Part shown: positions 8,258-21,946 of the stretch, one piece after another
Layout of the letters: each line of letters opens with the position of its first letter
Position numbering within the stretch: the first letter of the stretch is position 1
Source: a virus
Strand: one strand, 5' to 3'
Virus record (IMG/VR): IMGVR_UViG_3300030406_003111
Location: 1 to 21,946 of that record
Length of the DNA stretch: 21,946 nucleotides
The notes under the pieces: model-generated
Database searches by the model: none
Told to the model about the DNA's origin: nothing
The model's input: the letters and a program-made list of their open reading frames with translations, nothing else
Position numbers and translations under genes: made by a program

Positions 8258-8592
8258 TGATAGTAAACGATGGGAAGGACAACTTAGCAAGTCTGCTTGC
8301 TAGTAATTACACTAAGATAAGAATAGGTGATGGCTCTGATGGCACTGCTGCATCACAAGAGAAACTAGACCATGAAGTAGGTACGGAAAAGACAGTCACG
8401 CCAACAAGAGTAAATAATCTTCTTACATGGAATGTGACATATACGGGGGCTGAACTGCCTCCAAGTGGTGCAACGGAGTTGGGTGTGTTCAATAGCAGTG
8501 GTATTATGTTGACTAGGGTGACATTCAAATCAACTGGGCCTGTTGCGGCAGGTGATAGTGTGACGTTCACAGTCAAGTTGGAGGTGGCCTAA
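8257..8592 (+). CDS. Small tail-collar/fibre-attachment-like protein
   Basis: This 111-aa protein has the layout of the small phage and haloarchaeal-virus tail proteins that begin with a short helix, then TKIRIGDGSDGTAAS (a usual form is 'thiavGtGttaps'). A strand pair (NNLLTWNVTYTGAEL), a GATELGVFNSSGIMLTRV segment and a final strand follow. In other tailed viruses such proteins lie beside the baseplate or at the fibre base, which agrees with its place between the hub and the long fibre. Its start is in TAATG with the hub stop. A G-rich stretch (GGAGAGGGAT) lies upstream but is a poor Shine-Dalgarno site, so translation may depend on coupling. The exact role, as fibre adaptor or collar, is inference. 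Confidence 0.65.
   Translation: MIVNDGKDNLASLLASNYTKIRIGDGSDGTAASQEKLDHEVGTEKTVTPTRVNNLLTWNVTYTGAELPPSGATELGVFNSSGIMLTRVTFKSTGPVAAGDSVTFTVKLEVA
8580..8587 (+). promoter_or_regulatory. Shine-Dalgarno site for the long fibre gene
   Basis: GGAGGTGG lies 4 nt before the ATG at 8592 and matches GGAGGTG of the canonical site. It sits in the last codons of the 111-aa gene and fixes the start at the TAATG junction. Confidence 0.7.
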
Positions 8593-11500
8593 TGACGGAT
8601 TTTAATGGAACAGTAGGGTCAGGCGCGATAAAGCACATTACTGGTTTGAACAGCCTAGCAGTTATTGATGACAATACTGATTCAATGCATACTGGTATCA
8701 TTCAGTATCTCAATGCCGCTGCTGCTGGTAATCATGTGGTTGACGGGATGACAATCACACAAAGCGATGCTGGAACTTTTACTAGATTTACCGTCTCTGC
8801 TGGTAGTTATTTTCAGAATCATGTGCTAAAATCATTCAGTCAGGCCACAAAAGACCTTGATGCCAACTTCAATGCTGCTGATTTTACATACTACATATTC
8901 CTAGTAGTGGATTCAAGTGGCTCCTTGCAGTTAAGAGGCAATGAGTCAGATGGTGCATCTGAGACTGATGTGGGTAATCTATCTGATGGAGACATACCGA
9001 TAGCACTCATAGAGATAAACAAGGCTTCAGCAGACGATGCTACAGACAGAAAGATACAGCATTATGGTGCAACAGCCAAAAGCAGAGGATTTAGCGTCAC
9101 AGATGCCAATGGAAATGAAGTCCTACAACTGAAGCCTGACGGTACTCTAGTAAATAGTGGTGGAACACTTACCCTACCCAGTGCTACAGATACATTAGTT
9201 GGTAGAGCCACTACTGATACATTGACTAACAAGACCATAAGTGGCTCATCCAATACCATAACAAACATACCAAACTCAGCATTGTCAGGAGTAAACTTCA
9301 CTGTATCTGATGGCTCAAACTCATCTACAGTCGCCCTAGGAGAGACAATAACAATACAAGGAACCAGCAATGAGGTAGAAGTCGCTGAGAGCAGCAAGAC
9401 ATTCACAATAGGTCTACCATCATCTATCACCGCAAACGTCACAGGGGCTTTGACAGGCAATGCAGATACTGCTACAACAGCAACCACTGCAACTACCGCC
9501 ACGACTGCGACAAACATCACAGTATCTGCCAATAACTCAACAGATGAGACAGTGTTCCCATTGTTCGTTGATGGTGCTACAGGTGGGCAAGGTGCAGAGA
9601 CAGATACGGGATTCACATACAATCCATCCACAGGTATGTTGACAGCAACTGGTTTCACAGGTGCTTTGACTGGAAATGCAAGCACTGCCACACAATTAGC
9701 CAATGCTAGAAACTTCTCTATTACTGGTGATATAACTGCAAGCGCAATCAGTTTCAACGGCACTGGTGCTGTGGAATTGGATGCCACCATAGACAATAAC
9801 AGCGTAGCACTTGGAACAAAGACCACAGGCTCATATGTCGCTCAAGGGGCTACATCAGGAAATGGTATTAGCGGTGCTGTAAATACAGAGGGAGGAACAT
9901 TCACTGTCACATCCAATGCTACGAATGCGAATACAGCAAGCACCATAGTATTCAGAGACAGCAACGGTGATTTCAGTGCTGGAACAATCAGTGCTGCATT
10001 GACAGGCAATGTGACAGGAAACGTCACAGGAACAGTCAGTTCTCTATCCAATCATGATACTGGTGACTTGGCAGAGGGAACCAACAAGTATCTGACTCTC
10101 GCTAACTTGAAGTCGCAACTCAACGCAAGTATGCCTTCTAATGCGCTTACCATTGGCGATAGCGATGATACAATCACTATTCCCGGTAGTTTAGTTGTCA
10201 CAGGAACAACTACAACAGCAAGTGTTGAGACAGTAAGCACAAGCAACGGAATTGTCTTTGAGGGGTCCACTGCTGATAATAATGAGACAACTCTAGTCGG
10301 TGGTAATCCATCAGGAGACATAACGATAACACTACCAACAACAGCAGGTACTGTTGCACTAACAACTAGTGACATAAGCGGTAATGCTGCTACTGCAACT
10401 CAGTGGGCAAATGCTAGAACGATAACCTTGGGTACTGATTTATCGGGTTCTGTGTCAATAGACGGCACTGGTGATGTCACTCTCAATGCGACAATAGCCG
10501 CAGATAGCGTTGCTCTAGGAACAGATACCACAGGTAATTATGTCGCTTCAATCACAAATGGAGGTTTCCTCACTGGTGGAAATGGTGGAAGTGAGGGAGC
10601 AGCACTGACCCTAGCAGTCGATGCTACAAACTTGAATACTGCATCAAAGGTAGTCGCTAGAGATTCAAGTGGAAACTTCTCTGCTGGCACTATAACTGCT
10701 ACACTATCAGGAAACGCATCTACTGCAACTCAGGTAGCAAACCTGAACAATCACGATACAGATGACTTGAGTGAGGGTAGCAATCTCTACCATACGACTG
10801 AGAGAGTGCAAGATGTAGTTGGTGGGCAGTTTGTCACAAATGGAAGCCATACCAACATAACAGCAGCATATGATGATAATGGTGATGGTGCTATTGACCT
10901 ATCCATAACAGATGGCACAATAAGAGGAAAGATAAGCGTCACAGACTCAGGTGGCGATGGTTCCCTAGCATACAACAACTCTACTGGTGTAATTACCTAC
11001 ACTGGCCCATCTGCATCAGATGTAAGGGCGCATTTCAGTGCTGGTACTGGTGTGGGGATAAGTTCAGGAGAGATATCCATAGGACAGGCAGTTGCCACAA
11101 ACAGCAACGTACAGTTCGGAACGATAACTGGAACTACAATAACAGGTAGTAGTATCGTTAAGAGCGGTGGGAGTTCCTCTGAGTTCTTGAAGGCAGATGG
11201 CAGTGTTGACTCAAGCACATATCTCACGGCTCACCCTAATATCAGCGGGGCTTCAACTGTATCAGCATCTACAGCCACTTTCATCGACGGATTAACTTTT
11301 GACAGTAATGGTCATGTCACCGCAACAAGCACATCAACTGCTCTGATTGGTGTCACTGATGGTAATCTGATAGACACTAGTACAACAAACGGAAACGTCA
11401 CGATAGCCGTTGATTTGAGTGAATTAACAGATATGACTGAGAGCGTAGATAAGACACAGGATGAGTTAGTCATATTGGACAATGGCTCACAGAAAAGAAA

Positions 11501-14500
11501 ACTAATATCGGAGATACCAATATCTGCACTGAACAATGACGGTAGTGCATTGAACCCTGCTAACTTCTCAGAGAAGAGCAGTTTCGACCACACAGGAGGG
11601 GCAGTGACAAATGAGGATACTTTCATCATAGCAGATACCGCTGCATCAAATGCAGGTAAGAGAATACTTGCTGGTAATATTCCTCTATCTGCTTTCAATA
11701 ATGATAGTGGATTTACAACTAACAATGGCGATATAACGGCAATTGTATCGGGTACTGGTTTGACTGGTGGAGATACGAGTGGTTCTGTCACACTGAATGT
11801 GGACCTCTCTGACCTAACCACTTCCACTAGTGATGGAGATGGTGATTTCTTCATCGTTGTTGATTCATCCAACGCACAGAAGAAACTGACAAAGGGCAAC
11901 ATCAACCTCTCAGGATTCAACAATGATAGTGGATTCCTCACTGCTCACCCGAATATATCAGCAGCGAGTAGTAGCGATAACTCAGGAAGAACATACATAC
12001 AGGATTTGACACTTGACTCGAATGGTCATGTCACAGGTATAGCGACAGCGACAGAGACAGTCACGAACTCATTCAGAACAGTATCAGTAGATACAAATGG
12101 AGATGGAAGTGCTAATAACACATTAGGAGCGAGCGAGACTCTAACTCTAAAGAAAGGCTCAAACATAACACTAGCAGAAGCAAGTGGAGTAATCACAATA
12201 AGTTCTACAGATACTAATACGAATCAATTAACCACATTCAATATTGGTGTAGATACAAACACAAATTCTACGACTATTGCTCACAATGAAACTCTAACAT
12301 TTACTGGTGGCACTGGTATCTCAACAGAAACTACTGCTGATGGAACTGTGACGATAACGAATGATTCTCCACACGTTGCAACGAACTTAGGAAGCACAAC
12401 CGCCACCGGTCAAATTACCATTACAAGTAGTACAGGAAACAATGTAGTCATTGGAGAAGCAACTGGTAGTATTGCTGGATTAATGTCAACTACTCATCAT
12501 GATAAGTTGGATGCCATCGAAGCATCTGCTGATGTCACAGATACGGCTAACGTCACTGCCGCAGGTGCATTGATGGATTCAGAGGTGAGCAATCTCGCAT
12601 TTGTGAAAGGATTGACATCGGGAATATCAGATGGGAATGTATTAGTCGCTGACTCCAATGTGGCAGATGATGATTTTCTAAGAGTTGCTGGAACATCCAT
12701 CGAAGGCAGAAGCGCAACAGAGGTAAGGAGCGATTTAGGTTTAGGTGCTGCCGCTTTGAAAGCAGTCGCTACTGATGGCACTAGTGGAGTAGCAAACGGA
12801 GAATCAGGTCTAGTCACTGGTAATGCTGTCTTTGACTACATAGAGGCACAGAACTTTGCTTCTTCAGGGGCATCTAACTTCGTTGTTGGAGACATCACAG
12901 GACAGGCAGAATTGTCAAGTGGGCTTGAATCCACTGATGAACTAGTATTGAGTGATGGTGGTTCTCTTGCGAGAATGGACATCTCCGTTCTACAATCATA
13001 TATGCAGAGCAATCTGACATTTACCACTGATACCAACACGTTCCGAACTGTGACAGCAGGAGGAAATACATTAGGTGGGTCAGAGACACTAGCCTTCACT
13101 GCTGGCTCCAATGTGACAATAACAGAAAGCGGGGGAGCAGTGACTATTGCCTCAACTGACACTAACACACAGTTGACATTACTAGACGAAGACAATATGA
13201 GTTCAAACAGCGCAACTGCTGCTGCTAGTCAACAGTCAATCAAAGCATATGTAGATGCGGAAGTTGCAGGGCTTGTAGACTCAGCACCATCTGCTCTAAA
13301 CACACTTAACGAACTTGCTGCTGCTCTTGGTGATGATGCTTCCTTCTCAACAACAACCGCTACATCATTAGGAAACAGATTGAGAGTTGACGTTAGTAAT
13401 CAAGGACTTACTTCTACTCAACAAGGAAATGCTTTGACGAATCTAGGCATCACTGCTTCATTAGCAGAAATAAACATACTAGACGATGGGCTTGCAGCAA
13501 GTGATATACCAAACCTAGCGGCTTCTAAAATTACTAGTGGAACACTAGGAACTGCTAGGATACCAAATCTTGCTACAAGCAAAATCACATCAGGTACATT
13601 CGCAGATGCAAGAGTAGCGGAGAGCAACGTGACTCAGCATCTAGCAGTTGGTTCAGGTGGAGGTATCGGTCTATCAGGTAAGACATTCTCACTAGACATT
13701 GATGGAATGACTGACATTGGAGCAGCATTGGTAGATGCAGATTTATTCATCGTAGATGATGGGGCTGATGGAACTAACAGAAAGGCTACGATGTCTAGAT
13801 TAAAGACATACATGCAAAATAATCTTACTTTTACTACGAATACGAATACGAACCAATTGACCACCTTTACTTTGACTGGTGATTCGGGGAGCGACCAAAC
13901 TATTGCTCATGGTAATACCCTTGATATTGCTGGCGGTACAGGTATAACTACAACAGTCGGTGCTACAGATACGTTAACAGTCGCTATTGACGCTGCTCAA
14001 ACAGGAATTACTTCCGCACTAAATACAAGTCTAGTGGTCGGTAGGGATGCTGATAACCAAATTAAGTTCTCCACTGATGACCAAATAATATTCAGGGTTG
14101 GAGCAGGAGATGGTGTCACTTTCAAGGCATCAGGAGAAATAGAAGCAACTAGCCTAGATATCAGTGGGGATGTAGATGTCGATGGTACTTTAGAAGCCGA
14201 TGCGATAACTCTTGGTGGTACGGCAGTTGCAGTATCAGGTGGTGCTTTCCATGACGGCTTCTCTGACTTCGTTGCCAACGAACACATAGACCATACCAGC
14301 GTGTCTATAGTTGCAGGTGATGGATTAACTGGTGGAGGAACTATCGCCTCTAGTAGAACTCTTGCTGTTGGTGCTGGAACTGGAATAGATGTAGCAGCAG
14401 ATGCGATATCTGTGGATGTATCTGACTTCATGACCAACGGCTCAAACAACAGAATTCTCACCGCCACTGGAACAGATGCGATGAACGCAGAGGCGAACCT

Positions 14501-14873
14501 CACCTTCGATGGTAGCACTCTAGCAGTCACAGGAGCATTAACAGCCACAACCAAGTCTTTCGATATAGAACATCCAACGAAAGAAGGAATGAGATTACAT
14601 CATGGTTCTCTTGAGGGACCGGAGCATGGTGTCTATATCAGAGGTAGATTGGAAGGAAATGAGATTGACCTGCCTGATTACTGGCTAGGCTTGGTGGATG
14701 ATGATACCATCACAGTTCAACTCACACCAAACAAGGGATTCCAGCAGATTTATGTCGAGGACATATCAGACAATAAGGTGTACGTCGGCACACAGAGCGA
14801 CAAACCTATTGATTGCTTCTACTTCATACAGGCAGAAAGAAAGGACATTGACAGAATGGAGGTCGAGTATTAA
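8592..14873 (+). CDS. Long tail fibre protein, 2093 aa, modular repeats with conserved tip domain
   Basis: The long receptor-binding fibre. Residues 1-165 form a globular N-terminal domain that probably attaches to the baseplate. Next come fibre modules common in marine phages: ATTDTLTNKTISGSSN, a (Thr-Ala-Thr)5 tract at residues 293-307, and GNASTATQLANARNFSITGD with a second copy about 240 residues later. There are also paired HDTGDLAEGTNKY/HDTDDLSEGSNLY units and two LTAHPNIS...LDSNGHVTG units. Several shaft units follow the pattern 'D-ELVI-D-G---K', for example ESTDELVLSDGGSLARMDIS. The last 105 residues (from KSFDIEHPTKEGMRLHHG through SLEGPEHGVYIRGR and LPDYWLGLVDD to FIQAERKDIDR) match the C-terminal fibre tip I know from T4-like marine cyanophages. 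That tip is the probable host-contact or trimerisation knob. It is coupled by TAATG to both neighbours and shares modules with the next fibre. Confidence 0.88.
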   Translation: MTDFNGTVGSGAIKHITGLNSLAVIDDNTDSMHTGIIQYLNAAAAGNHVVDGMTITQSDAGTFTRFTVSAGSYFQNHVLKSFSQATKDLDANFNAADFTYYIFLVVDSSGSLQLRGNESDGASETDVGNLSDGDIPIALIEINKASADDATDRKIQHYGATAKSRGFSVTDANGNEVLQLKPDGTLVNSGGTLTLPSATDTLVGRATTDTLTNKTISGSSNTITNIPNSALSGVNFTVSDGSNSSTVALGETITIQGTSNEVEVAESSKTFTIGLPSSITANVTGALTGNADTATTATTATTATTATNITVSANNSTDETVFPLFVDGATGGQGAETDTGFTYNPSTGMLTATGFTGALTGNASTATQLANARNFSITGDITASAISFNGTGAVELDATIDNNSVALGTKTTGSYVAQGATSGNGISGAVNTEGGTFTVTSNATNANTASTIVFRDSNGDFSAGTISAALTGNVTGNVTGTVSSLSNHDTGDLAEGTNKYLTLANLKSQLNASMPSNALTIGDSDDTITIPGSLVVTGTTTTASVETVSTSNGIVFEGSTADNNETTLVGGNPSGDITITLPTTAGTVALTTSDISGNAATATQWANARTITLGTDLSGSVSIDGTGDVTLNATIAADSVALGTDTTGNYVASITNGGFLTGGNGGSEGAALTLAVDATNLNTASKVVARDSSGNFSAGTITATLSGNASTATQVANLNNHDTDDLSEGSNLYHTTERVQDVVGGQFVTNGSHTNITAAYDDNGDGAIDLSITDGTIRGKISVTDSGGDGSLAYNNSTGVITYTGPSASDVRAHFSAGTGVGISSGEISIGQAVATNSNVQFGTITGTTITGSSIVKSGGSSSEFLKADGSVDSSTYLTAHPNISGASTVSASTATFIDGLTFDSNGHVTATSTSTALIGVTDGNLIDTSTTNGNVTIAVDLSELTDMTESVDKTQDELVILDNGSQKRKLISEIPISALNNDGSALNPANFSEKSSFDHTGGAVTNEDTFIIADTAASNAGKRILAGNIPLSAFNNDSGFTTNNGDITAIVSGTGLTGGDTSGSVTLNVDLSDLTTSTSDGDGDFFIVVDSSNAQKKLTKGNINLSGFNNDSGFLTAHPNISAASSSDNSGRTYIQDLTLDSNGHVTGIATATETVTNSFRTVSVDTNGDGSANNTLGASETLTLKKGSNITLAEASGVITISSTDTNTNQLTTFNIGVDTNTNSTTIAHNETLTFTGGTGISTETTADGTVTITNDSPHVATNLGSTTATGQITITSSTGNNVVIGEATGSIAGLMSTTHHDKLDAIEASADVTDTANVTAAGALMDSEVSNLAFVKGLTSGISDGNVLVADSNVADDDFLRVAGTSIEGRSATEVRSDLGLGAAALKAVATDGTSGVANGESGLVTGNAVFDYIEAQNFASSGASNFVVGDITGQAELSSGLESTDELVLSDGGSLARMDISVLQSYMQSNLTFTTDTNTFRTVTAGGNTLGGSETLAFTAGSNVTITESGGAVTIASTDTNTQLTLLDEDNMSSNSATAAASQQSIKAYVDAEVAGLVDSAPSALNTLNELAAALGDDASFSTTTATSLGNRLRVDVSNQGLTSTQQGNALTNLGITASLAEINILDDGLAASDIPNLAASKITSGTLGTARIPNLATSKITSGTFADARVAESNVTQHLAVGSGGGIGLSGKTFSLDIDGMTDIGAALVDADLFIVDDGADGTNRKATMSRLKTYMQNNLTFTTNTNTNQLTTFTLTGDSGSDQTIAHGNTLDIAGGTGITTTVGATDTLTVAIDAAQTGITSALNTSLVVGRDADNQIKFSTDDQIIFRVGAGDGVTFKASGEIEATSLDISGDVDVDGTLEADAITLGGTAVAVSGGAFHDGFSDFVANEHIDHTSVSIVAGDGLTGGGTIASSRTLAVGAGTGIDVAADAISVDVSDFMTNGSNNRILTATGTDAMNAEANLTFDGSTLAVTGALTATTKSFDIEHPTKEGMRLHHGSLEGPEHGVYIRGRLEGNEIDLPDYWLGLVDDDTITVQLTPNKGFQQIYVEDISDNKVYVGTQSDKPIDCFYFIQAERKDIDRMEVEY
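9468..9512 (+). repeat. (Thr-Ala-Thr)5 low-complexity tract in the fibre
   Basis: Fifteen consecutive codons encode five copies of Thr-Ala-Thr (fibre residues 293-307). Synonymous codons vary from copy to copy (gct/gca/gcc/gcg and aca/acc/act/acg), so the DNA repeat is degraded while the peptide period is intact. This suggests selection on the protein rather than recent slippage. Confidence 0.8.
11307..11320 (+). repeat. Fibre shaft repeat, copy 1 (second copy 12021-12034)
   Basis: AATGGTCATGTCAC occurs at both places, inside longer similar modules that run from LTAHPNIS to LDSNGHVT. It is the best-conserved core of an internal duplication about 714 nt apart in the long fibre. Confidence 0.65.
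12786..14535 (+). repeat. Fibre module series A-B-C-D, long-fibre copy
   Basis: Four modules here recur in the same order in the second fibre (about 15032-16875). A has VANGESGLVTGNAVFDYIEA. B has STDELVLSDGGSLARMDIS and then SYMQSNLTFTT. C has LDEDNMSSNSATAAASQQSI and then KAYVD. D has DFMTNGSNNRILTATGTDAM and then NAEANL. Approximate starts are 12786, 12925, 13178 and 14400, against 15032, 16050, 16523 and 16740. A 20-nt perfect identity sits in module B (12996-13015 and 16127-16146). Confidence 0.75.
14858..14863 (+). promoter_or_regulatory. Shine-Dalgarno site for the second fibre gene
   Basis: GGAGGT lies 9 nt before the ATG at 14873, within the end of the long fibre gene. It supports independent initiation in addition to TAATG coupling. 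Confidence 0.6.
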
Positions 14874-17719
14874 TGGCAAATAGCGATAAGGACATCAAGA
14901 TTACACCAAATACAGGGGAGTCTGCTTCGCCTAAGATAGAGGTGACAGGTGCGGATAACGCAACCAAGACCATAACGATAAACGATGATGGCACTATATC
15001 GTTTGACTCCACTATAGCAGCGACTTCAGGCTCAGTGGCAAATGGAAATGCGAATCTAGTCACAGGAGATGCGGTATTCGATTATATTGCAGCACAGGGA
15101 TTTACTACGAATACAGGTGACATAACAGGAGTTGACTTGACCGGTGGTACAGGTGTGACCATAGGTTCTGAAACTAATACCCAAAGTGGCGCATATTCTT
15201 CAACAATATCTATCGGTCAAGCAGTTGGTACTTCAGATGATGTGACATTCTCAACATTGACACTTGCTAGTGACTTGATTCACTCAGGCGACACCAATAA
15301 TAAAATCGCATTCGGCACAGATACGCAGTCTTTCCAAACAGGAGGAACTGCTAGATTCAATATCAGTGATTCAGGATTGCAGATTGGAAGCGGGGCTAGA
15401 GTCACAACAATCAACACAGGATTCTCAGACAATAACACTTCTTTGATGACTTCAGCAGCCATCAATGACAGAATAGAATCCTTCGGCTACATCACTTCTC
15501 AGATGACATTCATTCTAGAGGATGACGATGGCACTGAGGTTTCCATATCAAACGCTGAAGAGATTAAGTTCCACAGTAGCGATACTAGTATTGACATCAA
15601 CTATACTGACATATCTCCGGGTTCAGACTCAGACCCATTCGATTTGAGTTTCAAAACTCTACACGCTCCTTATTTGAAAACAGCAGATGATAGAGACTTT
15701 GCTCCTGAAGATTTAACCACTAGTCAAAGACAAATCTTCGGATTATTCTCATCAAAGACAGGTTTGGAAGACGGTTCAACTGCTGGCTCTGATTATACTG
15801 ATACTCTAGTGTTTGATACTTACACAAGTGGCTCAGGTGGAGATGCTAACCTACTAGCACTATCTAAGACTAGTACGAAAAGAATCTATCATTATCGTGC
15901 TGCTAGAGATGCTACTAATTGGGGAACTGCCTCAACTGTTGCGTACATTAGTGATATCCCAACAAACACCAATCAACTAACAAATGGTGCAGGTTTTATC
16001 ACATCAAGACTGGCTGCATCAGATATTACAGGTGCAACTGCACTTACAAGTGGTCTAGCATCAACTGATGAATTAGTATTGAGCGATGCTGGAACTCTGA
16101 AGAGAATGGATGTCTCTGTTCTTCAGTCATATATGCAGAGCAATCTCACCTTTACTACTAACACGAATACACAGTTGTCAAATGAGCAAGTACAAGATAT
16201 CGTTGGAGGCATGTTCTCTAGTAACACTGAGACAGGTATAACGGCAACATACCAAGACAGTGATGGCACAATTGACTTAGTGGTTGGCACGTTGAATCAG
16301 GATACGACAGGGAATGCAGCGACAGTAACAGTTGCTCTTGATGAATCTACTAATGCCAACAATACTATTCCATTCCTTAGAAGTGATGGAACATTGGCAA
16401 AGGATGGTGGTTTCAGATTCAATCCTTCTATTGATACATTAACTGTGCCAAAGATTCTCACATCAAGTAGTGCAGATATTGCCGCATTGAGCCTCAACGG
16501 TGAAGTGCTACAAGTGACTTCAATTTTAGATGAAGACGATTTGGCTTCTAATTCTGCTACTGCTTTGGCAACTCAACAGTCTATCAAAGCATATGTCGAT
16601 TCAGAGATATCAGGAGTAGGTGGTGGAAGCGGAGACATCACCGCAGTTGTAGCAGGTAACGGTCTAACTGGTGGAGCAACTACTGGTTCTGCAACACTCA
16701 ACATCGGTGCAGGAACTGGTATTGATGTAACCGCAAATGCAATTGCAGTAGACGTATCTGACTTTATGACCAATGGTGCAAACAACAGAATTGTAACTGC
16801 AACAGGCACAGATGCCATGAATGCAGAAGCAGGTCTCACTTGGGATGGTAGCACACTAACAGTCAGTGGAGGTGCGGGAGATGCAGTATTATCATTACAA
16901 GCAGACTCAGACAACTCAGGTGAATTAGACCAACCATACATGGAGTTCGTATTAGATGGAGGTACAACACACTCATCTATTGGACATTCATCTGATGTAT
17001 TCCATAATGACAATACAGACAATAACACATTGATTATCGCTAACTCAGTAGCAGCAAACGATTCAGGTTCAGGAATAGTGTTGAAGACAGGACAATCAGC
17101 AGGACATGAGAATGCTGTTGAAAGAATAAGAATATCACCTACTGGTGGTATTAAGTTCCACGATGAATACACATTCCCCGCATCGGATGGTAGTAATGGG
17201 CAGGTTCTAACTACCAATGGTAGTGGAACATTATCCTTTACAACAGTAAGCGGTGGTGGTTCAGATACCAATACCTTCGTTATTGTCGGTGAGGAGTCTG
17301 ATGTTCATATCGCTAGTACGGCGGCTGCTGGTGGAGCAAATGGTTTCCAAATGTCTTTCGGTAATGGAGCAAGGAACACAACTAATTCTTCAACAGGAAC
17401 AGACTTTGGTGTTGCTTTACCTGTTGCTTGCACATTGTCAAGAATAGACATAGCATTCGGTAATAATGGTAGTGAAACAAATTCCAGCAATCAGACAATG
17501 ACCGTTTTCAAGAATAGGTCAGCCAGTACAACTACAATGCAATTCAATGCTAGTGGGACTGGTGGTAATGCGTTTGTTAGGTCATTCACATCATTAAGTG
17601 GAACTGGTGTATCTTACGCAGCAGGAGATACTTTCAACTTAAGAACAACAGGAATGCAGGGATATACTAATACACAGGTTGGCCCTGCAAGAATGACGGC
17701 ATACTTTACGGTAGCATGA
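14873..17719 (+). CDS. Second tail fibre protein, 948 aa, with a different C-terminal tip
   Basis: A shorter receptor-binding fibre. The N-terminus (DKDIKITPNTGE, IEVTGADNATKTITINDDGT) is the usual attachment segment of marine phage fibres. Shaft units such as HSGDTNNKIAFGTDTQSFQT follow. Residues about 230-362 hold a separate domain (IKFHSSDTSIDI ... TSQRQIFGLFSSKTGLEDGS ... TKRIYHYRAARDATNWGT) that the long fibre lacks. Modules shared with the long fibre come in the same order before and after it. Near residue 770 is a typical pre-tip motif (DEYTFPASDGSNGQVLTTNG). The last 150 residues are a Gly/Asn/Thr-rich beta domain (PVACTLSRIDIAFGNNGSE, SGTGVSYAAGDTFNLRTTGM), jellyroll-like in pattern and unrelated to the long fibre's tip. 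This tip is the probable host-range determinant, which is inference. Confidence 0.85.
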   Translation: MANSDKDIKITPNTGESASPKIEVTGADNATKTITINDDGTISFDSTIAATSGSVANGNANLVTGDAVFDYIAAQGFTTNTGDITGVDLTGGTGVTIGSETNTQSGAYSSTISIGQAVGTSDDVTFSTLTLASDLIHSGDTNNKIAFGTDTQSFQTGGTARFNISDSGLQIGSGARVTTINTGFSDNNTSLMTSAAINDRIESFGYITSQMTFILEDDDGTEVSISNAEEIKFHSSDTSIDINYTDISPGSDSDPFDLSFKTLHAPYLKTADDRDFAPEDLTTSQRQIFGLFSSKTGLEDGSTAGSDYTDTLVFDTYTSGSGGDANLLALSKTSTKRIYHYRAARDATNWGTASTVAYISDIPTNTNQLTNGAGFITSRLAASDITGATALTSGLASTDELVLSDAGTLKRMDVSVLQSYMQSNLTFTTNTNTQLSNEQVQDIVGGMFSSNTETGITATYQDSDGTIDLVVGTLNQDTTGNAATVTVALDESTNANNTIPFLRSDGTLAKDGGFRFNPSIDTLTVPKILTSSSADIAALSLNGEVLQVTSILDEDDLASNSATALATQQSIKAYVDSEISGVGGGSGDITAVVAGNGLTGGATTGSATLNIGAGTGIDVTANAIAVDVSDFMTNGANNRIVTATGTDAMNAEAGLTWDGSTLTVSGGAGDAVLSLQADSDNSGELDQPYMEFVLDGGTTHSSIGHSSDVFHNDNTDNNTLIIANSVAANDSGSGIVLKTGQSAGHENAVERIRISPTGGIKFHDEYTFPASDGSNGQVLTTNGSGTLSFTTVSGGGSDTNTFVIVGEESDVHIASTAAAGGANGFQMSFGNGARNTTNSSTGTDFGVALPVACTLSRIDIAFGNNGSETNSSNQTMTVFKNRSASTTTMQFNASGTGGNAFVRSFTSLSGTGVSYAAGDTFNLRTTGMQGYTNTQVGPARMTAYFTVA
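15032..16875 (+). repeat. Fibre module series A-B-C-D, second-fibre copy
   Basis: Counterpart of 12786-14535, with the same order of four modules but different spacing. About 880 nt more separate A and B (this includes the extra residue 230-362 domain). About 1 kb less separates C and D. Synonymous changes are frequent, so the duplication is not recent. Confidence 0.75.
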
Positions 17720-17728: not shown

Positions 17729-18073
17729 ATGGCAATAGGAGAACATGGAGAAGAGATAACGATTAGCATGGAAGAGGCAATGGCAAAGGTCAGATACTCT
17801 AGGGACTGGATGTTAGAAACATATGTAGATTTTTATCAATCTAAACCTCTGTTGTATAATGCATTAACACCGACAGAACAACAGGAATTAGCAGATTACA
17901 GACAGGCACTTCTCGATTGGCCTGAAGTGTTGCAACAGATATACGGTGACACACCGCCTAACTCATACGCTAAACATCAACCATACCAACCTGATTTCTT
18001 TCAGAATCACCCAAGAGGTATAATGTTCGTAGACCCACAATCTCCATTGGGTAGAACACTGAACGGGAACTAA
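17729..18073 (+). CDS. Tail fibre assembly chaperone-like protein
   Basis: A 114-aa protein, last of the late operon and directly after the fibres, the classic place for a fibre assembly protein. Residues about 20-70 read VRYSRDWMLETYVDFYQS and then LTPTEQQELADYRQALLDWP. This matches the Phage_tail_APC/tail-fibre-assembly signature (R-x-x-W/L near the start, then 'L...EQ..ladYRQALrDlPe'). Family members help fibres fold or trimerise and are usually absent from the virion. The C-terminal 40 residues (HQPYQPDFFQNHPRGIMFVD) are Pro/aromatic-rich, look extended, and might contact the fibre. The stop TAA overlaps the stop of the convergent minus-strand gene. The family match is fairly confident. 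Which fibre it serves is unknown. Confidence 0.75.
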   Translation: MAIGEHGEEITISMEEAMAKVRYSRDWMLETYVDFYQSKPLLYNALTPTEQQELADYRQALLDWPEVLQQIYGDTPPNSYAKHQPYQPDFFQNHPRGIMFVDPQSPLGRTLNGN

Positions 18074-18351
18074 GCCTTCTTCTTTCTTCCCTTCTTAGGA
18101 GTCAGGATGTTTCTAGCAGTCTGACAACAATAGCGAATCTTCTGAGTTGACTCTAACTTCCAAAAGGAGTCTCTCTCCAATCCGAACTTATCCTCGATAT
18201 GACAACACAACTCATACCTGCTCATCTTAGCAAAGTCATCGTCAATCTCCAAACCTAGAACTGGCCCTTCGGGATGGTCTAGTTTCTTATCCAACCAAAC
18301 ATAGGTATGGCCCATGAAGGAAATCAATTTTCTAATCAGCCACTGTTTCAT
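18070..18351 (-). CDS. Small basic protein of unknown function, 93 aa
   Basis: I do not recognise this family. The N-terminus (MKQWLIRKLISFMGHTYVWL) is amphipathic or hydrophobic and could touch a membrane. An acidic centre (LEIDDDF) follows. Two Cys-Cys pairs (C49-C50-H51 and C75-C76) could bind a metal. The last residues (PKKGRKKKA) are strongly basic. The ATG is in a 4-nt ATGA overlap with the 104-aa gene upstream, so the two are very likely co-translated. The TAG stop overlaps the TAA of the convergent late operon. The A-rich codons of the basic tail also make a pyrimidine-rich tract (about 18075-18098) on the plus strand, just past the late operon's end. Nucleic-acid or DNA-packaging contact is only a guess. 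Confidence 0.7.
   Translation of the reverse strand: MKQWLIRKLISFMGHTYVWLDKKLDHPEGPVLGLEIDDDFAKMSRYELCCHIEDKFGLERDSFWKLESTQKIRYCCQTARNILTPKKGRKKKA
18075..18098 (+). terminator. Possible late-operon terminator (pyrimidine tract)
   Basis: Directly after the late operon's stop the plus strand runs through a TTCTTCTTTCTT-type tract. Archaeal termination favours T-rich non-template tracts, so this may end late transcription. No run longer than TTT is present and the tract is also explained by Lys codons on the other strand, so the call is weak. Confidence 0.2.
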
Positions 18352-18662
18352 TTCTTAGCCTCCGTCTTCTTCTTCTGCTGCTCGATGAACTTCCTGTATA
18401 TGGCTGCCTCCTTAGTCTTACCCATTTCTCTTGCTCTTTGCTCCATTGCTATTGCAGCCTGAGTCTTATGTGCGTGGCTTCTATCGCTTCTTCTTATCTT
18501 GGCTACTGATTTTCTAGATGTCTCCTCATCCTTGAATCCTAATCCGTGAATAGTTCCCTTTGGATTCTCATCAGTATACAAATCAGAATGCTTCTTTGAG
18601 TTTCTTCTTTGTCCCTTCTTTCTTGGAATACGAGGTGCTTTCACTGTGTCAAACCAACTCAT
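18348..18662 (-). CDS. Small highly basic protein, 104 aa, unknown function (start corrected to internal ATG)
   Basis: I set the start at the ATG at 18662 (MSWFDTVKAPRIPRKKGQRR) rather than the in-frame ATG ten codons upstream at 18692. The 18662 start forms an exact ATGA overlap with the stop of the preceding 35-aa gene, the same arrangement as its own 3' junction. Residues 5-25 are very basic. Residues 36-63 (KGTIHGLGFKDEETSRKSVA and KIRRS) resemble the short 'GLGFkdeetArksI..I' module found in small viral proteins of unknown function. Residues 64-98 (HAHKTQAAIAMEQRAREMG, then KEAAIYRKFIEQQKKK) are predicted helical and Lys/Arg-rich. Nucleic-acid binding is plausible from charge alone. No catalytic motif is visible. 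Confidence 0.72.
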   Translation of the reverse strand: MSWFDTVKAPRIPRKKGQRRNSKKHSDLYTDENPKGTIHGLGFKDEETSRKSVAKIRRSDRSHAHKTQAAIAMEQRAREMGKTKEAAIYRKFIEQQKKKTEAKK

Positions 18663-18766
18663 ACATACGCCCCGCAATAAGTGCAGAAGCATCCTTGTCT
18701 TGAAAACACGATTGGTCTAATCCATTCACAAGTGATACATACGCCTAAGTCGAACTCACTTTTCAT
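18659..18766 (-). CDS. Zinc-finger microprotein, 35 aa
   Basis: A 35-aa ORF found by manual translation. Five Cys residues in 35 form a probable zinc site: C10-x2-C13 (VCITCEW) and C28-x2-C31 (CFCTYCGAYV), with an extra C26. The knuckle spacing and the short aromatic-rich ending are typical of zinc ribbons. The start ATG overlaps the stop of an 18-aa ORF (ATGA) and its own TGA overlaps the start of the 104-aa gene (ATGA), so it sits inside a chain of coupled genes. A GGAGTAGGT stretch 7-15 nt upstream could serve as a weak SD. A role in transcription control or protein-protein contact is possible but not shown. Confidence 0.6.
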   Translation of the reverse strand: MKSEFDLGVCITCEWIRPIVFSRQGCFCTYCGAYV

Positions 18767-18819
18767 GGTCTGAACCTACTCCAACACCACAGCCCACGAC
18801 ACAGTTCCCATATAATCAT
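18763..18819 (-). CDS. Possible 18-aa bridging microORF
   Basis: The ORF encodes MIIWELCRGLWCWSRFRP. Its ATG overlaps the TGA of the 23-aa ORF and its TGA overlaps the ATG of the 35-aa zinc-finger gene, both as exact 4-nt ATGA. The peptide is Trp/Cys/Arg-rich and short, so it may act only to carry terminating ribosomes to the next start. A second frame in the same place (ATG at 18823, 15 aa) is also open. It is kept because of the double overlap. Confidence as a functional product is low. Confidence 0.3.
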   Translation of the reverse strand: MIIWELCRGLWCWSRFRP

Positions 18820-18887
18820 TCATCATCCCATTCTTTGAACATCTCTTCTAGGCATCGTAGAAACATTGCACTGTTTGATTTACTCAT
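18816..18887 (-). CDS. Possible 23-aa acidic microprotein
   Basis: The ORF encodes MSKSNSAMFLRCLEEMFKEW followed by DDE, which would form one amphipathic helix. GGAGTGGT (the end of the preceding gene) lies 5 nt before the ATG and looks like a Shine-Dalgarno site. The preceding TAA is separated by a single base. The 3' end is in an ATGA overlap. I know no family for it. Support is from SD, coupling and codon use only. Confidence 0.4.
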   Translation of the reverse strand: MSKSNSAMFLRCLEEMFKEWDDE

Positions 18888-18888
18888 T

Positions 18889-19020
18889 TTAACCACTCCA
18901 TTTTAGATATGCTATACCAGCAAAAGTGAGAATCAACATCACTATACCTAACGGCATAAGGTTGATTTCTATTTCAGCGTTTATTACGTCTTTTATTATT
19001 CGGTCATCTACTAGAAGCAT
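18889..19020 (-). CDS. Single-pass membrane microprotein, 43 aa
   Basis: First gene of the left minus-strand operon, found by manual translation. Residues 1-20 are charged (DDRIIKDVINAEIEIN). Residues 21-39 (LMPLGIVMLILTFAGIAYL) form a clear transmembrane helix, and the end is KWSG. The positive C-terminus suggests an N-out/C-in orientation by the positive-inside rule. No Shine-Dalgarno site precedes the ATG, but a TATA-like element is centred about 31 nt upstream, which fits a leaderless mRNA. Possible roles include holin-like, superinfection-exclusion or membrane-anchor activity. None is supported beyond the single TM helix. Confidence 0.55.
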   Translation of the reverse strand: MLLVDDRIIKDVINAEIEINLMPLGIVMLILTFAGIAYLKWSG

Positions 19021-19044: not shown

Positions 19045-19057
19045 GTAAAAATAAATT
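19045..19057 (-). promoter_or_regulatory. Putative archaeal TATA-box promoter for the microgene operon
   Basis: On the minus strand AATTTATTTTTA lies about 26-37 nt before the ATG at 19020. Archaeal TATA boxes are centred about 26 nt before the transcription start, so RNA would begin at or a few bases before the ATG, giving a leaderless transcript. That agrees with the lack of an SD site. It is also downstream of the terminator of the right operon. No clear BRE is visible. Confidence 0.4.
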
Positions 19058-19095
19058 ACGACTTTAAGTGCGCTGCTGTTGCTTGAAAATTGCCC

Positions 19096-19144
19096 AAAAA
19101 AAACCAAAAAAAAGGCGAAGTGGCCTAGTAAAATTAATTACTAG
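19096..19144 (-). terminator. Terminator: inverted repeat followed by two T8 tracts
   Basis: Reading the minus strand there is an inverted repeat (CTAGTAA, 6-nt loop, TTACTAG; 19144-19125) whose loop contains the stop codon of the 45-aa gene. Next come GGCCACTTCGCC, T8 (19113-19106), GG and a second T8 (19103-19096). Repeated oligo-T runs are the hallmark of archaeal factor-independent termination. The element ends the early/replication operon. Confidence 0.7.
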
Positions 19145-19271
19145 ACCACAACGCTTTACATTCTCTGCACTGCCATATGTGCAAAGTCTCAGAAGAACCA
19201 ACTACCTTGCCTTCTATTCTTCTAGGAATAGTTTCCCTAGAACACTGAAAGCAAACTTTAGCGAGTGCCAT
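19134..19271 (-). CDS. Zinc-ribbon microprotein, 45 aa
   Basis: A small gene found by manual translation, last in the early operon. Two CxxC knuckles, C7-F-Q-C10 and C35-R-E-C38, lie 24 residues apart with a basic, Gly-containing hairpin between them (PRRIEGKVVGSSETLHIWQ). This is the classic zinc-ribbon arrangement. It overlaps the end of the 52-aa gene by 14 nt in another frame and has no strong SD, so it is probably translated by coupling. The stop lies inside the terminator hairpin. Small viral zinc ribbons often modulate host or viral transcription. That role is inference here. Confidence 0.7.
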   Translation of the reverse strand: MALAKVCFQCSRETIPRRIEGKVVGSSETLHIWQCRECKALWSSN

Positions 19272-19416
19272 TACGACCACGTTCGTCTTCAATCAAGTTC
19301 TCCATGTATTCTTCAATGCTTGACTCAGTATACTTACTGTTTCCAAACGCAGCGAAGAATAAAAGAGATATGATGATGACGAATATAATCCATCCGAACC
19401 ATTCCCAAGGACTCAT
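19258..19416 (-). CDS. Single-pass membrane microprotein, 52 aa
   Basis: The product starts MSPWEWFGWIIFVIIISLLF. Residues 5-24 are a strong transmembrane helix with Trp residues at the membrane interface, followed by a charged cytoplasmic-type tail (SSIEEYMENLIEDERGRNG). The ATG follows the TAG of the exonuclease gene with no gap. A perfect GGAGGTGA Shine-Dalgarno sequence lies 8 nt upstream, one of the best in the window, so translation is very likely. I know no family. Membrane anchoring of the replication machinery or a lysis or exclusion role are only possibilities. Confidence 0.7.
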   Translation of the reverse strand: MSPWEWFGWIIFVIIISLLFFAAFGNSKYTESSIEEYMENLIEDERGRNGTR

Positions 19417-20010
19417 CTACCACTTCACCTCCAATTCTTTTGCTTTTTCTTCTTCTATGGAAAAACCTTTGACTATATTGTTTTCCTTGCCGTATACCCA
19501 CAAGTCATAGACCAATTCACAATCCTTCAGACAGTAATCTGCTACTTCAGTGTATCTACCTGCTTTCCATACTAGAGGAGCATCAGCACTTTCCATTAAC
19601 TTCTCAGCACCTAATGTGTGATGAACAAGATTGGAAAGGCTGAATCTCTCACCGTATTCCTTATTCAATATCCTGCTAGTATCGATGTATGCTTTCTTAT
19701 CTAGGTATTCCTTGATGCAATAGATGTCCATTGCATTCTTCAGCACAGCCAAATCAAAAGAGACAATGTTATGTCCTAACAATACACCATCGTTCTGTCG
19801 ATGTGCATCCAAGTCAAACTTCAATTCTGATAATGGTTTGACAACCACATTTGATTTGCGTATGGATGATATTGGCTCGTCAATATAGACTGTTCCAGTG
19901 TTTCCATCCCATGTGCATACAGTAGACACTTGAAACATGTGAGTATTACCCCAACCCCCAATTTCATGAGAGTAGTTCTTTGTCTCAATGTCAAGGGCTA
20001 AGACGTTCAC
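19417..20010 (-). CDS. DEDDy-family 3'-5' exonuclease (DnaQ/PolB-exonuclease-like), stand-alone
   Basis: A 197-aa RNase H-fold nuclease expected to remove 3' nucleotides with two metal ions. All DEDD motifs are visible: ExoI D7-x-E9 (LALDIET), ExoII N81/D86 (GHNIVSFDLAVL), and ExoIII Y159-x3-D163 (VADYCLKDCELV), giving the DEDDy subtype used by family-B polymerase proofreading domains. An extra ordered segment has D110 (YIDTSRIL). No polymerase domain follows, so this is a free exonuclease for proofreading in trans, recombination or host-DNA breakdown. The GTG start overlaps the preceding stop (GTGA). Operon position beside an ATPase and an XPF-type nuclease argues for replication or repair. 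The catalytic class is confident, the pathway role inferred. Confidence 0.88.
   Translation of the reverse strand: MNVLALDIETKNYSHEIGGWGNTHMFQVSTVCTWDGNTGTVYIDEPISSIRKSNVVVKPLSELKFDLDAHRQNDGVLLGHNIVSFDLAVLKNAMDIYCIKEYLDKKAYIDTSRILNKEYGERFSLSNLVHHTLGAEKLMESADAPLVWKAGRYTEVADYCLKDCELVYDLWVYGKENNIVKGFSIEEEKAKELEVKW
19425..19432 (-). promoter_or_regulatory. Strong Shine-Dalgarno site for the 52-aa membrane microprotein
   Basis: GGAGGTGA, inside the last codons of the exonuclease gene (encoding LEVK), lies 8 nt before the ATG at 19416. It is the key reason to accept this short gene. Confidence 0.75.
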
Positions 20011-20258
20011 TCGTCACCACTTTCCCCTGTCCAAAGATTTGCAAGTTTCTTAGCCTGAGCCTCTTTTGGATTTGGTGCTTGGATTAGGTTTGGTTTAACC
20101 ATCCATGCAACTAGATGTTCTCCACCACCAACTGTTATCATTGTTGATAGATACCATCCATCGTTCCCATATGTATTCAGGGACTCATTTATCGTTTTTG
20201 GGCCATCACTTACTGGAAACACCAAGAATTGATGTTCGTATGTATCTTTTTTTGTCAT
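20007..20258 (-). CDS. Small DUF4177-like protein, 83 aa
   Basis: Residues 8-55 (EHQFLVFPVSDGPKTINESL, then NTYGNDGWYLSTM and a last strand VAWMVK) follow the DUF4177 pattern: a first strand ('yeykvv'), a helix ending in 'LN.lG.eGWelv', and a closing strand. Such proteins are small alpha-beta folds of unknown biochemical function, common in phages and bacteria. The C-terminus (PKEAQAKKLANLWTGESGDE) is a charged helix. The start is well supported by AGGAGG 7 nt upstream and by the ATGA overlap with the ATPase gene. The end is in a GTGA overlap with the exonuclease. Co-translation with both suggests an accessory role in replication, unproven. Confidence 0.65.
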   Translation of the reverse strand: MTKKDTYEHQFLVFPVSDGPKTINESLNTYGNDGWYLSTMITVGGGEHLVAWMVKPNLIQAPNPKEAQAKKLANLWTGESGDE

Positions 20259-21724
20259 TCTTTTTCCTCCTTACTTTTCATTCTCACATATGCTCGTATG
20301 CCGATTTTCTTGTTATCGAACATATCTGAAATCTCCTTAAACTGTCTGTATATGGTTGCTTGTCCTTTCTTAGTATCTTCCCTTACTTTTCCTAACAATA
20401 GTGCTTTATTCACCCAACCATCATCATCTTCTCTTAGCAACTTAGTGTATGCTGTTCTAAACGCATTAACATTTACTTTCTCATGTAAAGCAGTTGCCTT
20501 CACCTTCAAGGCTACATCAAGCCACGTTACCAGCGATTTATAGCATTGTCGAATGACCGAAGAGGCTTGACGTACATGCCTTTCAGTGACAATGAACCTC
20601 TTTTCTTTGTCTTTGATGTTCGGTGCTTCAGCGATACAACACAGGACTGCGAGCCTAGTCATAGTCTGATTCAGCCTTGTGATGAAGTTGCCAGCAATCT
20701 CAAACACTTCGGGTCTACTGCTAGATACATAGTTTCTCATCTTGTTAGATTCATTCTTTAATGCATCATTAAATCCTCTACCAAATCTAATTGTATGTAG
20801 GGGGTCATTACCTGCATCTTCATATCTCTCCCTGAGAGCATCGTAGATTAAACCAAAGTTGTTAGCATGTTTCTGAATAGGTGCATTCTTTGGTTTGATT
20901 GTTCCTATCTCATCTAGAATCATGTCTCTCAACTCATCCTGTATTTCCTGTGGAACTTCTTGGATGTAGATGAGGGTTCTTTGAATAACACCTTTCTCTG
21001 CAATCACATTTGTTAGTGTCTTAGGAATATATGTTGTTGAGTATAGACTTCTTTGGCTTCTGCACTCAATCATATCTCCTTCCTTTAGTTTCTTTTCTAT
21101 AATCCAGTTCTCTCCCCAAAGAGTGTTCATTAACTTATTCAAGTACATGATAACATTCTCTTTGTGTTGAGACACTTTGAAAACTCCTGAGTATTCAAAC
21201 TCATCATAGGCAATCAATCCACTTCCCTCTAGGCCACCATCGATTTTGACAATCTGTTCTTCCCAAGTAGTGTTTCCTTCTTCATCCTCTACTGCTACTC
21301 GTTCCTTCGTGTTAGAACCTATCAAGGCAGCATCAGTAGCATCGTCCACAGAAAAGACATTGAACTCAGTTCCGTGTTTCGCATTTATCATTCTGAATGA
21401 TTCCCTAGCAACAGGCCCAAAGAAGTTATACAATTCTGTTTTTCCTGTTCCTGATGTCTGCATCCAAATAAATTGTATTCTAGTATCATCTCTTCTAGTA
21501 CCACTTGGTATAACAACCATGTCTTTTGCTAACTGTCCTAAGATAACAAAGAAACCAATTGCTGCTGGTATCTCATTATACTTCGACATGTCTGCTGCAT
21601 CTTTCACATACTGTTCTACTACCTTTGGCAAACTGTTCTTCTTCTCTATCGGAGTGATTACATTCTCACTCAATCCTTCGTAGTATAGTCGGTCTTCATC
21701 ATATTCATCATTTTCATTATTCAT
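20255..21724 (-). CDS. DUF3987-like P-loop ATPase / putative replicative helicase with winged-helix C-terminus
   Basis: A 489-aa ATPase, probably the viral helicase or initiator-like motor. The N-terminal helical region (residues 31-75, LPKVVEQYVKDAADMSKYNE, IGFFVILGQLAKDM) resembles the start of DUF3987 proteins. The P-loop at residues 89-96 is QTSGTGKT, with Gln in place of the first Gly of GxxxxGKT. Walker B is LIAYDE (D174-E175). A candidate sensor lies at about 229-239 (STTYIPKTLTN) and a candidate arginine finger at R249 (GVIQRTLIYIQEVP). Residues 379-400 form a helix like the arm next to archaeal MCM winged helices. Residues about 434-480 (GWVNKALLLGKVREDT ... IYRQFKEISDMFD) look like a winged helix for DNA. 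The start follows the preceding TGA with no gap and has GGTGAT 4 nt upstream. MCM or another AAA+ class remains an alternative. Confidence 0.72.
   Translation of the reverse strand: MNNENDEYDEDRLYYEGLSENVITPIEKKNSLPKVVEQYVKDAADMSKYNEIPAAIGFFVILGQLAKDMVVIPSGTRRDDTRIQFIWMQTSGTGKTELYNFFGPVARESFRMINAKHGTEFNVFSVDDATDAALIGSNTKERVAVEDEEGNTTWEEQIVKIDGGLEGSGLIAYDEFEYSGVFKVSQHKENVIMYLNKLMNTLWGENWIIEKKLKEGDMIECRSQRSLYSTTYIPKTLTNVIAEKGVIQRTLIYIQEVPQEIQDELRDMILDEIGTIKPKNAPIQKHANNFGLIYDALRERYEDAGNDPLHTIRFGRGFNDALKNESNKMRNYVSSSRPEVFEIAGNFITRLNQTMTRLAVLCCIAEAPNIKDKEKRFIVTERHVRQASSVIRQCYKSLVTWLDVALKVKATALHEKVNVNAFRTAYTKLLREDDDGWVNKALLLGKVREDTKKGQATIYRQFKEISDMFDNKKIGIRAYVRMKSKEEKE
20266..20271 (-). promoter_or_regulatory. 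Shine-Dalgarno site for the DUF4177-like gene
   Basis: AGGAGG lies 7 nt before the ATG at 20258, within the end of the ATPase gene, and fixes that start. Confidence 0.7.
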
Positions 21725-21946
21725 TCATATCACCATTTCTTCTTCTTTGTTCAGCACATCGATTACCCTCTTGGCAATCACCTTACCAAAGCCTTCCAGT
21801 TCACATATCTCTTCAACTGATGCTTCTCCTATCTCCATAATAGAGCCGAACTTATCTATCAGGAGTTTCGCTTTCTTCGGGCTTATGCCCTTTATTGTGC
21901 ATAGCACATCTATTCTCAAATCAGTAGTCGCTATACGCTTTCTGAT
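21725..21946 (-). CDS. C-terminus of an XPF/Hef-type structure-specific nuclease (partial, runs off the right edge)
   Basis: The reading frame is open to the window edge, and the TTG at 21919 is not a believable start. The preceding codons continue in frame as IRKRIATTD. Residues after that form a tandem helix-hairpin-helix: the first hairpin in CTIKGISPKKAKLLIDKFGS, the second in ICELEGFGKVIAKRVIDVL. A basic lead-in, 'GIS.k.AklLl..FGSi', and then 'GfGk..AkrV..vl' is the classic C-terminus of XPF, Hef and ERCC4 nucleases, where it binds branched DNA and mediates dimerisation. The ERCC4 catalytic domain (GDXnERKX3D) should lie just outside the window. It heads the visible early operon. XPF/Hef proteins are archaeal and eukaryotic, which is the best host clue here. 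A UvrC- or ligase-type HhH end is the alternative. Confidence 0.72.
   Translation of the reverse strand: MRKRIATTDLRIDVLCTIKGISPKKAKLLIDKFGSIMEIGEASVEEICELEGFGKVIAKRVIDVLNKEEEMVI
21729..21734 (-). promoter_or_regulatory. Shine-Dalgarno site for the ATPase gene
   Basis: GGTGAT lies 4 nt before the ATG at 21724, in the last codons of the nuclease gene. It supports the chosen start. Confidence 0.6.

Follow-up and report, generated by a model that had tools for sequence, protein, structure and literature searches.

A variable microgene cassette of magroviruses and a shared N-terminal peptide that may address its exchangeable proteins to the virus head

We propose that a cassette of six small genes in a magrovirus is a mobile accessory operon, and that the genes exchanged at one of its seams encode head cargo, addressed to the prohead by a short N-terminal tag that works like the capsid targeting sequence (CTS) of phage T4. 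We put the probability of this reading at roughly 0.6. The slot in our sequence is occupied by g104, which on our best reading would be a basic virion cargo protein that its tag sends to the prohead for packaging. The window, that is, the whole stretch of DNA analysed here, comprises 21,946 nucleotides of the viral record IMGVR_UViG_3300030406_003111. Its relevant features are the following.

17729-18073, plus strand: tail-assembly-chaperone-like gene (PHROGs tail fibre / tail fibre assembly, E 7e-5 to 2.5e-4)
18070-18351, minus strand: g93, 93-aa protein (MKQWLIRKL...VLGLxIDDD...STQKIRF); pN/pS 0.11
18348-18662, minus strand: g104, 104-aa basic protein in the swap slot, domain KKHSDLYTDENPKGTIHGLGF, phrog_727 match; pN/pS 0.012
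18639-18662, minus strand: tag MSWFDTVK, the N-terminus of g104; same tag on 368 distinct proteins
18659-18766, minus strand: z35, 35-aa zinc-ribbon-like protein, found at 20 loci; pN/pS 0.22
18763-18819, minus strand: m18, 18-aa microORF MIIWELCRGLWCWSRFRP; pN/pS 0.33, frame-specific
18816-18887, minus strand: m23, 23-aa microprotein MSKSNSAMFLRCLEEMFKEWDDE; pN/pS 0.11, frame-specific
18889-19020, minus strand: t43, 43-aa single-TM microprotein; pN/pS 0.44, frame-specific (p = 0.04)
19045-19070, minus strand: promoter-like block CACTTAAAGTCG-TAATTTATTTTTAC, conserved with the cassette
19106-19126, minus strand: terminator-like element after z44, a small GC-rich hairpin followed by T8, conserved in relatives
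19134-19416, minus strand: upstream flank with t52 (single TM) and z44 (zinc ribbon), the end of the replication operon, conserved in relatives
19417-21946, minus strand: replication operon, recognised from PHROGs and relatives

The virus and its relatives

Judged by gene content, the source virus is a magrovirus (Magrovirales), a tailed virus with Marine Group II archaea as hosts; to our knowledge, no magrovirus is in culture so far. The assignment follows from the gene set of its relatives, which we collected via the 489-aa replication gene and which have the operon of the window in common with it. Their contigs of 80–98 kb encode a family B polymerase (PolB), a clamp loader, an archaeal-type ATP-dependent ligase, a TFIIB zinc ribbon, an ERCC4-type nuclease, an SU10-type capsid protein and an S78 prohead protease. 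The polymerase is in two parts in some of them (G002, for example) and a single long ORF in others. Magrovirales are viruses of Marine Group II archaea (PMC10768690), and we find what is expected of them: a two-part PolB, a clamp loader, a ligase, an ERCC4-type nuclease, HK97-type head genes and a genome of about 90 kb. The likeness to Magrovirales / Aoguangviridae (Poseidoniales virus YSH_150918) covers the split PolB, the clamp loader, the ATP-dependent ligase and the TFB zinc ribbon, and extends to the two opposed gene clusters and the size of 80–100 kb (PMC10768690). The ICTV profile of this group describes neither a tag nor a cassette (PMC10768690).

Two contigs deserve separate mention. 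L082 is a shorter contig; the proteins it has in common with the window are identical, and both probably come from the same virus population. L403 (184733 bases) is tagged and magrovirus-like but about twice the usual genome size, which could make it a concatemer, a chimera or a large relative.

The replication operon encodes an exonuclease (197 aa), an 83-aa protein, a 489-aa ATPase-like protein and the C-terminus of an ERCC4/HhH-type nuclease, the last two names being suggested by sequence features. Its terminal genes t52 and z44 are kept in relatives with and without the cassette, and the hairpin and T8 behind z44 are kept in most relatives, cassette-less ones included. On the other side, the tail-chaperone-like gene converges on the cassette and shares 4 nt with the end of g93. 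The original prediction had placed the cassette between the replication and tail operons, at an early/late boundary. As the tail gene is convergent, the cassette is found where the replication operon and the tail operon meet tail to tail, and an early/late boundary in the sense of a divergent switch is not supported. Further into the window lie very large, repetitive tail/fibre-like genes (2084-8257, 8592-14873 and 14873-17719, encoding 2057, 2093 and 948 aa). The 948-aa protein differs strongly between relatives with replication genes of about 90% identity or more.

A cassette of real genes

The six minus-strand ORFs of 43, 23, 18, 35, 104 and 93 aa are transcribed in the order t43, m23, m18, z35, g104, g93. 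Their coordinates and lengths were predicted exactly, and so were the four ATGA overlaps (18816-18819, 18763-18766, 18659-18662 and 18348-18351) and the 1-nt gap at the first junction (t43/m23). A 4-nt overlap is possible in 25% of same-strand neighbours (89 of 351 in four related genomes). Four overlaps at five junctions are a mild enrichment (binomial ~0.016). Hence, the ATGA chain by itself is only mildly unusual for this type of genome, and we rejected it as a special signature.

All six ORFs are real genes under purifying coding selection; pN/pS across relatives, given in the feature list, is lowest for g104. For the four small ORFs the selection is frame-specific. Among 500 column shuffles none was as low as observed for m18, m23 and z35, and p was 0.04 for t43; this frame test covered these four ORFs and left out g104 and g93. 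The view that this is a discrete module of real small genes with its own promoter-like block is thus supported by the pN/pS values and by the conserved upstream block. That its content is undescribed is borne out within the libraries searched: Pfam, PHROGs and NCBIfam yield no function for t43, z35 or g93.

The T/A-rich box of the promoter-like block (AATTTATTTTTAC) ends 24 nt before the ATG of t43. The block (CACTTAAAGTCGnAATTTATTTTTAC) is near-identical in most cassette-bearing relatives and missing from cassette-less ones. The three cassette-bearing genomes that we scanned have one copy each, invariably 24 nt upstream of the ATG that opens the cassette, and with a single copy per genome we rejected a general late promoter.

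The small genes differ in how well they are kept. The least conserved is t43, which is replaced or missing in four records (L091, L092, L093 and L095). In the z35 alignment, C10, C13, C26, C28 and C31 are invariant. The ORF m18 is ATGA-coupled on both sides (to m23 and z35) and is also found elsewhere, ahead of g93 or a tagged gene (L159, L161). One could argue that m18 serves in translational coupling or as a leader, irrespective of its peptide: its stop-start overlap holds whichever gene comes next (z35, g93 or a tagged gene), and in L092 it is broken by two in-frame stops and has no ATG, so it is dispensable there. Yet intact copies show a pN/pS of 0.21 in frame versus 0.88 and 1.43 in the other frames, which leaves the coupler a possible but doubtful explanation for m18. 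Stops in the microORFs of relatives had been named in advance as evidence against the module; they do occur in the m18 of L092, with z35 and g93 intact, but elsewhere m18 is under purifying selection.

The last gene, g93, has homologues on 61 contigs at identities down to 49% and is present in 17 of 31 magrovirus records searched. Its AF2 model (pLDDT 81) has no PDB match in Foldseek, and BFVD gave only an unnamed 84-aa homologue. As g93 is widespread in magroviruses and often found among the cargo genes, our guess is that it could have a role in head assembly.

An accessory operon with an exchange slot

The cassette is an accessory operon that is found at different genome positions. In six records (L099-L103 and L108) the operon stops after z44, the tail gene follows about 60–110 nt further on, and the cassette is absent. 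A tree of the 489-aa protein places cassette-bearing and cassette-less records on two sides. In L142 the whole cassette, from t43 to g93, lies inside the head operon, and in L159, L162 and L164 g93 precedes the large terminase gene, with tagged genes around it. Two further cassette-less loci (L096:12974-13522 and L105:12955-13503) carry other genes on the opposite strand past z44, including one for a 182-aa methyltransferase-like protein, which also adjoins the cassette in L086.

Between z35 and g93 the cassette changes its content. This seam is empty in L087, L088, L089, L092 and L095, where z35 joins g93 directly. It is filled by g104 in L082, L083, L085 and L090, by a 98-aa gene in L086, by a 235-aa gene in L091 and by two tandem genes in L147. 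Whether g104 is there or the slot is empty, the stop-start seams fit exactly. The phylogeny of the 489-aa protein (helicase) requires 3–4 changes for g104 and 5 for the empty slot. Even the very close sisters L090 and L091 have different occupants. The slot occupants have been exchanged recently.

The slot replacements start with MNWFSIVK and MSWFSILK, and g104 starts with MSWFDTVK. Tagged genes also precede g93 in L146, L147, L159, L161, L162 and L164; L093, without g93 at that place, has an untagged 67-aa gene in the corresponding position. Copies of g104 that are about 98% identical lie in the head modules of G005, which is cassette-less, and of L001, whereas the only g104 copy found in G002 is in the cassette. 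This gene has relocated between head module and cassette. Among the loci compared, no other slot gene was found in the head module of another genome.

The original prediction had thought of host-takeover or lysis genes. In such an operon the ATGA chain would be ordinary compact packing and g104 a chance acquisition. The small TM and zinc-ribbon proteins, the promoter-like block of its own and the variable content would all fit, and ATGA-type overlaps are common, as described above. Against this, the replacements of g104 bear the head-module tag and other magroviruses have the cassette within their head operon, so that we regard the idea as improbable. Pfam, PHROGs and NCBIfam reveal no lysis domain. 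A lysis cassette is not supported, as these libraries gave no match of the holin, endolysin or spanin type; short TM proteins alone cannot decide the matter. Host takeover by the small genes is possible.

The N-terminal tag

The tag consists of eight residues with the consensus M-[ST]-W-x-[DNS]-[ITV]-[LV]-K. Neither the tag nor the exchange slot, the more interesting side of this region, figured in the original prediction. The magrovirus proteins that it heads fall into 202 unrelated families (BLAST), nearly all encoded in the head module. Four magrovirus genomes that we scanned contain 9, 7, 13 and 7 ORFs starting with the tag; about 0 are expected, and a chance motif was therefore rejected. 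With the exception of the slot, all these ORFs lie in the strand cluster of the head module, and some 14-kb stretches contain 15–16 tags. When one narrow DNA spelling of the tag was sought in the whole viral collection, 72 of the 80 loci examined were magrovirus-like. The tag was not found in the related halovirus HVTV-1, and the bacteriophage loci tested gave one chance-like match only (L073).

Conservation ends abruptly with the tag: the entropy rises from 0.24 bits at K8 to 3.9 at residue 9. Every one of the six leucine and three isoleucine codons is used. Since synonymous codons vary, the peptide is what is selected. It could still be argued that the shared N-terminus is a DNA-level element, such as a recombination seam or a translation signal, for tagged genes vary rather little at their 5' ends (ATGAGTTGG) and are exchanged as whole units at ATGA. 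But at positions 4–8 it is the peptide that is kept while the codons vary, and the motif can also be internal: DDSWFNILRMGGAV in L155 matches the N-terminal MNWFDQLKMTGAV of L161. A DNA-level element is hence very improbable.

What the tagged proteins do is visible in few cases. Pfam and PHROGs provide few functions, and the known domains are PAP2 phosphatase, pentapeptide repeats, a tRNA-ligase-type phosphodiesterase domain and a DEK C-terminal domain. A head-module protein starting with VSWFDAIK (L120:17120-17920) combines a PAP2 phosphatase domain with a small basic domain (phrog_17747). The portal, capsid protein, terminase and protease do not bear the tag, and no shared cleavage site is visible after residue 8. 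Within the cassette, t43, m23, m18, z35 and g93 are untagged. As the microproteins lack the tag, not all products of the cassette have to be virion cargo.

The tag could also be a docking motif for another late assembly partner, such as the terminase, the portal, a tail protein or a protein of the replication compartment. Tagged proteins would then be assembly factors that are not kept in the virion. Tagged genes do adjoin the genes for TerL, the portal and a possible TerS, and the matching copies in L155 and L161 suggest that the peptide motif acts wherever it is placed. However, about 200 unrelated families and rapid turnover fit variable cargo better, as assembly factors are usually conserved. 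We consider the docking of assembly factors unlikely, if the most serious competitor of head cargo.

The g104 domain in marine phages

Residues 9–92 of g104 match phrog_727 (E 8.7e-6), and relatives of g104 are encoded in at least 593 viral stretches. In its predicted model the basic N-terminal part is of low confidence, and three helices follow towards the C-terminus. Foldseek found no PDB match for the model, and a sequence search of the PDB returned nothing credible. The protein is a small basic domain that probably binds DNA.

The same domain is found at about 80% identity over 91 residues in T4-like marine phages (S-SM2 SSM2_109, Bellamy gp123, P-TIM68). More generally, the module occurs in cyanophages and pelagiphages, often as part of a larger protein. 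In these phages the phrog_727 domain is mostly one module of proteins of 200–900 aa, set between acidic linkers, whereas in magroviruses g104 is a stand-alone tagged protein. The phage modules are bounded by linkers of the types ..(K/N)EES (xEES) and ..MNE[A/E/G/S], which by their sequence may be prohead-protease sites. In front of four marine phage copies stands MKTLQQFLES, a sequence similar to MKTFKEF, with which T4 internal protein I begins. At the marine bacteriophage loci (L007-L080) we also observed large modular proteins with exchangeable small domains and MNE[AEGS] and xEES linkers. They look like polyproteins that a prohead protease would cut into many head peptides.

Discussion

If slot proteins are head cargo, the cassette would work as follows. 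It is probably transcribed from its own archaeal-type promoter and probably translated by stop-start coupling at the ATGA seams. The core consists of t43, m23, m18, z35 and the conserved g93, and the z35-g93 seam is the slot, at which whole ORFs are exchanged and the neighbours left undisturbed. The products of the slot genes, which begin with M-[ST]-W-[KEFQ]-D-I-L-K or something very near it, would be head cargo. The tag peptide probably docks the protein into the prohead core; the docked protein would then be packaged, perhaps to be ejected with the DNA. Genes for an S78 prohead protease and an SU10-type major capsid protein are present in these genomes.

The nearest known parallel is the CTS of the T-even phages, the only part that is conserved among their otherwise diverse internal proteins (PMC3012670). 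Both systems have a short N-terminal peptide on unrelated, variable and often small head proteins, and in both a prohead protease is encoded. The first hallmark of the T4 system, a conserved short peptide at the N-terminus of diverse proteins, is present (368 proteins, 202 families); the identical peptide is absent, as MKTFKEF of T4 IPI and MSWxDILK of magroviruses share no sequence identity. T4 has a handful of CTS proteins, whereas magroviruses have 7–16 or more tagged proteins. The magroviruses, moreover, are archaeal viruses, and for their tagged proteins packaging and cleavage are putative. Because the peptide differs, the tag would be an analogue of the T4 CTS by function and not a member of it.

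A second parallel exists in the giant phages SPN3US and phiKZ, whose N-terminal propeptides presumably direct diverse proteins into the head (PMC5694885). As with the tag, N-terminal regions of diverse proteins are concerned. The propeptides of the ejection proteins, however, are mostly long (about 80–160 residues) and their cleavage has been mapped, whereas the magrovirus tag has eight residues.

In the open literature that we searched the tag is not described; the original magrovirus paper lies outside that scope. Titles on the capsid targeting sequence include no archaeal virus, and a search for internal head proteins of archaeal viruses returned no paper.

Beyond the cassette, we lean towards the view that M-S-W-x-D-I-L-K is a general head-loading label of magroviruses. 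With it each genome would have a dozen or so unrelated, rapidly exchanged proteins packaged and delivered into archaeal cells, with exchange at ATGA stop-start seams at no fewer than two sites, the head operon and the cassette.

Magroviruses probably rank among the most abundant viruses in surface waters of the ocean (PMC10160649). Nearly all of their small genes are unnamed, and one peptide motif now groups about 200 unknown families as probable head cargo. The small g104 module, at about 80% identity, spans archaeal viruses and phages of marine bacteria. If the tagged proteins are indeed packaged, they would enter the archaeal cell right at the onset of infection, where one would naturally look for counter-defence. 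The tag might also be of use for loading proteins into particles of archaeal viruses.
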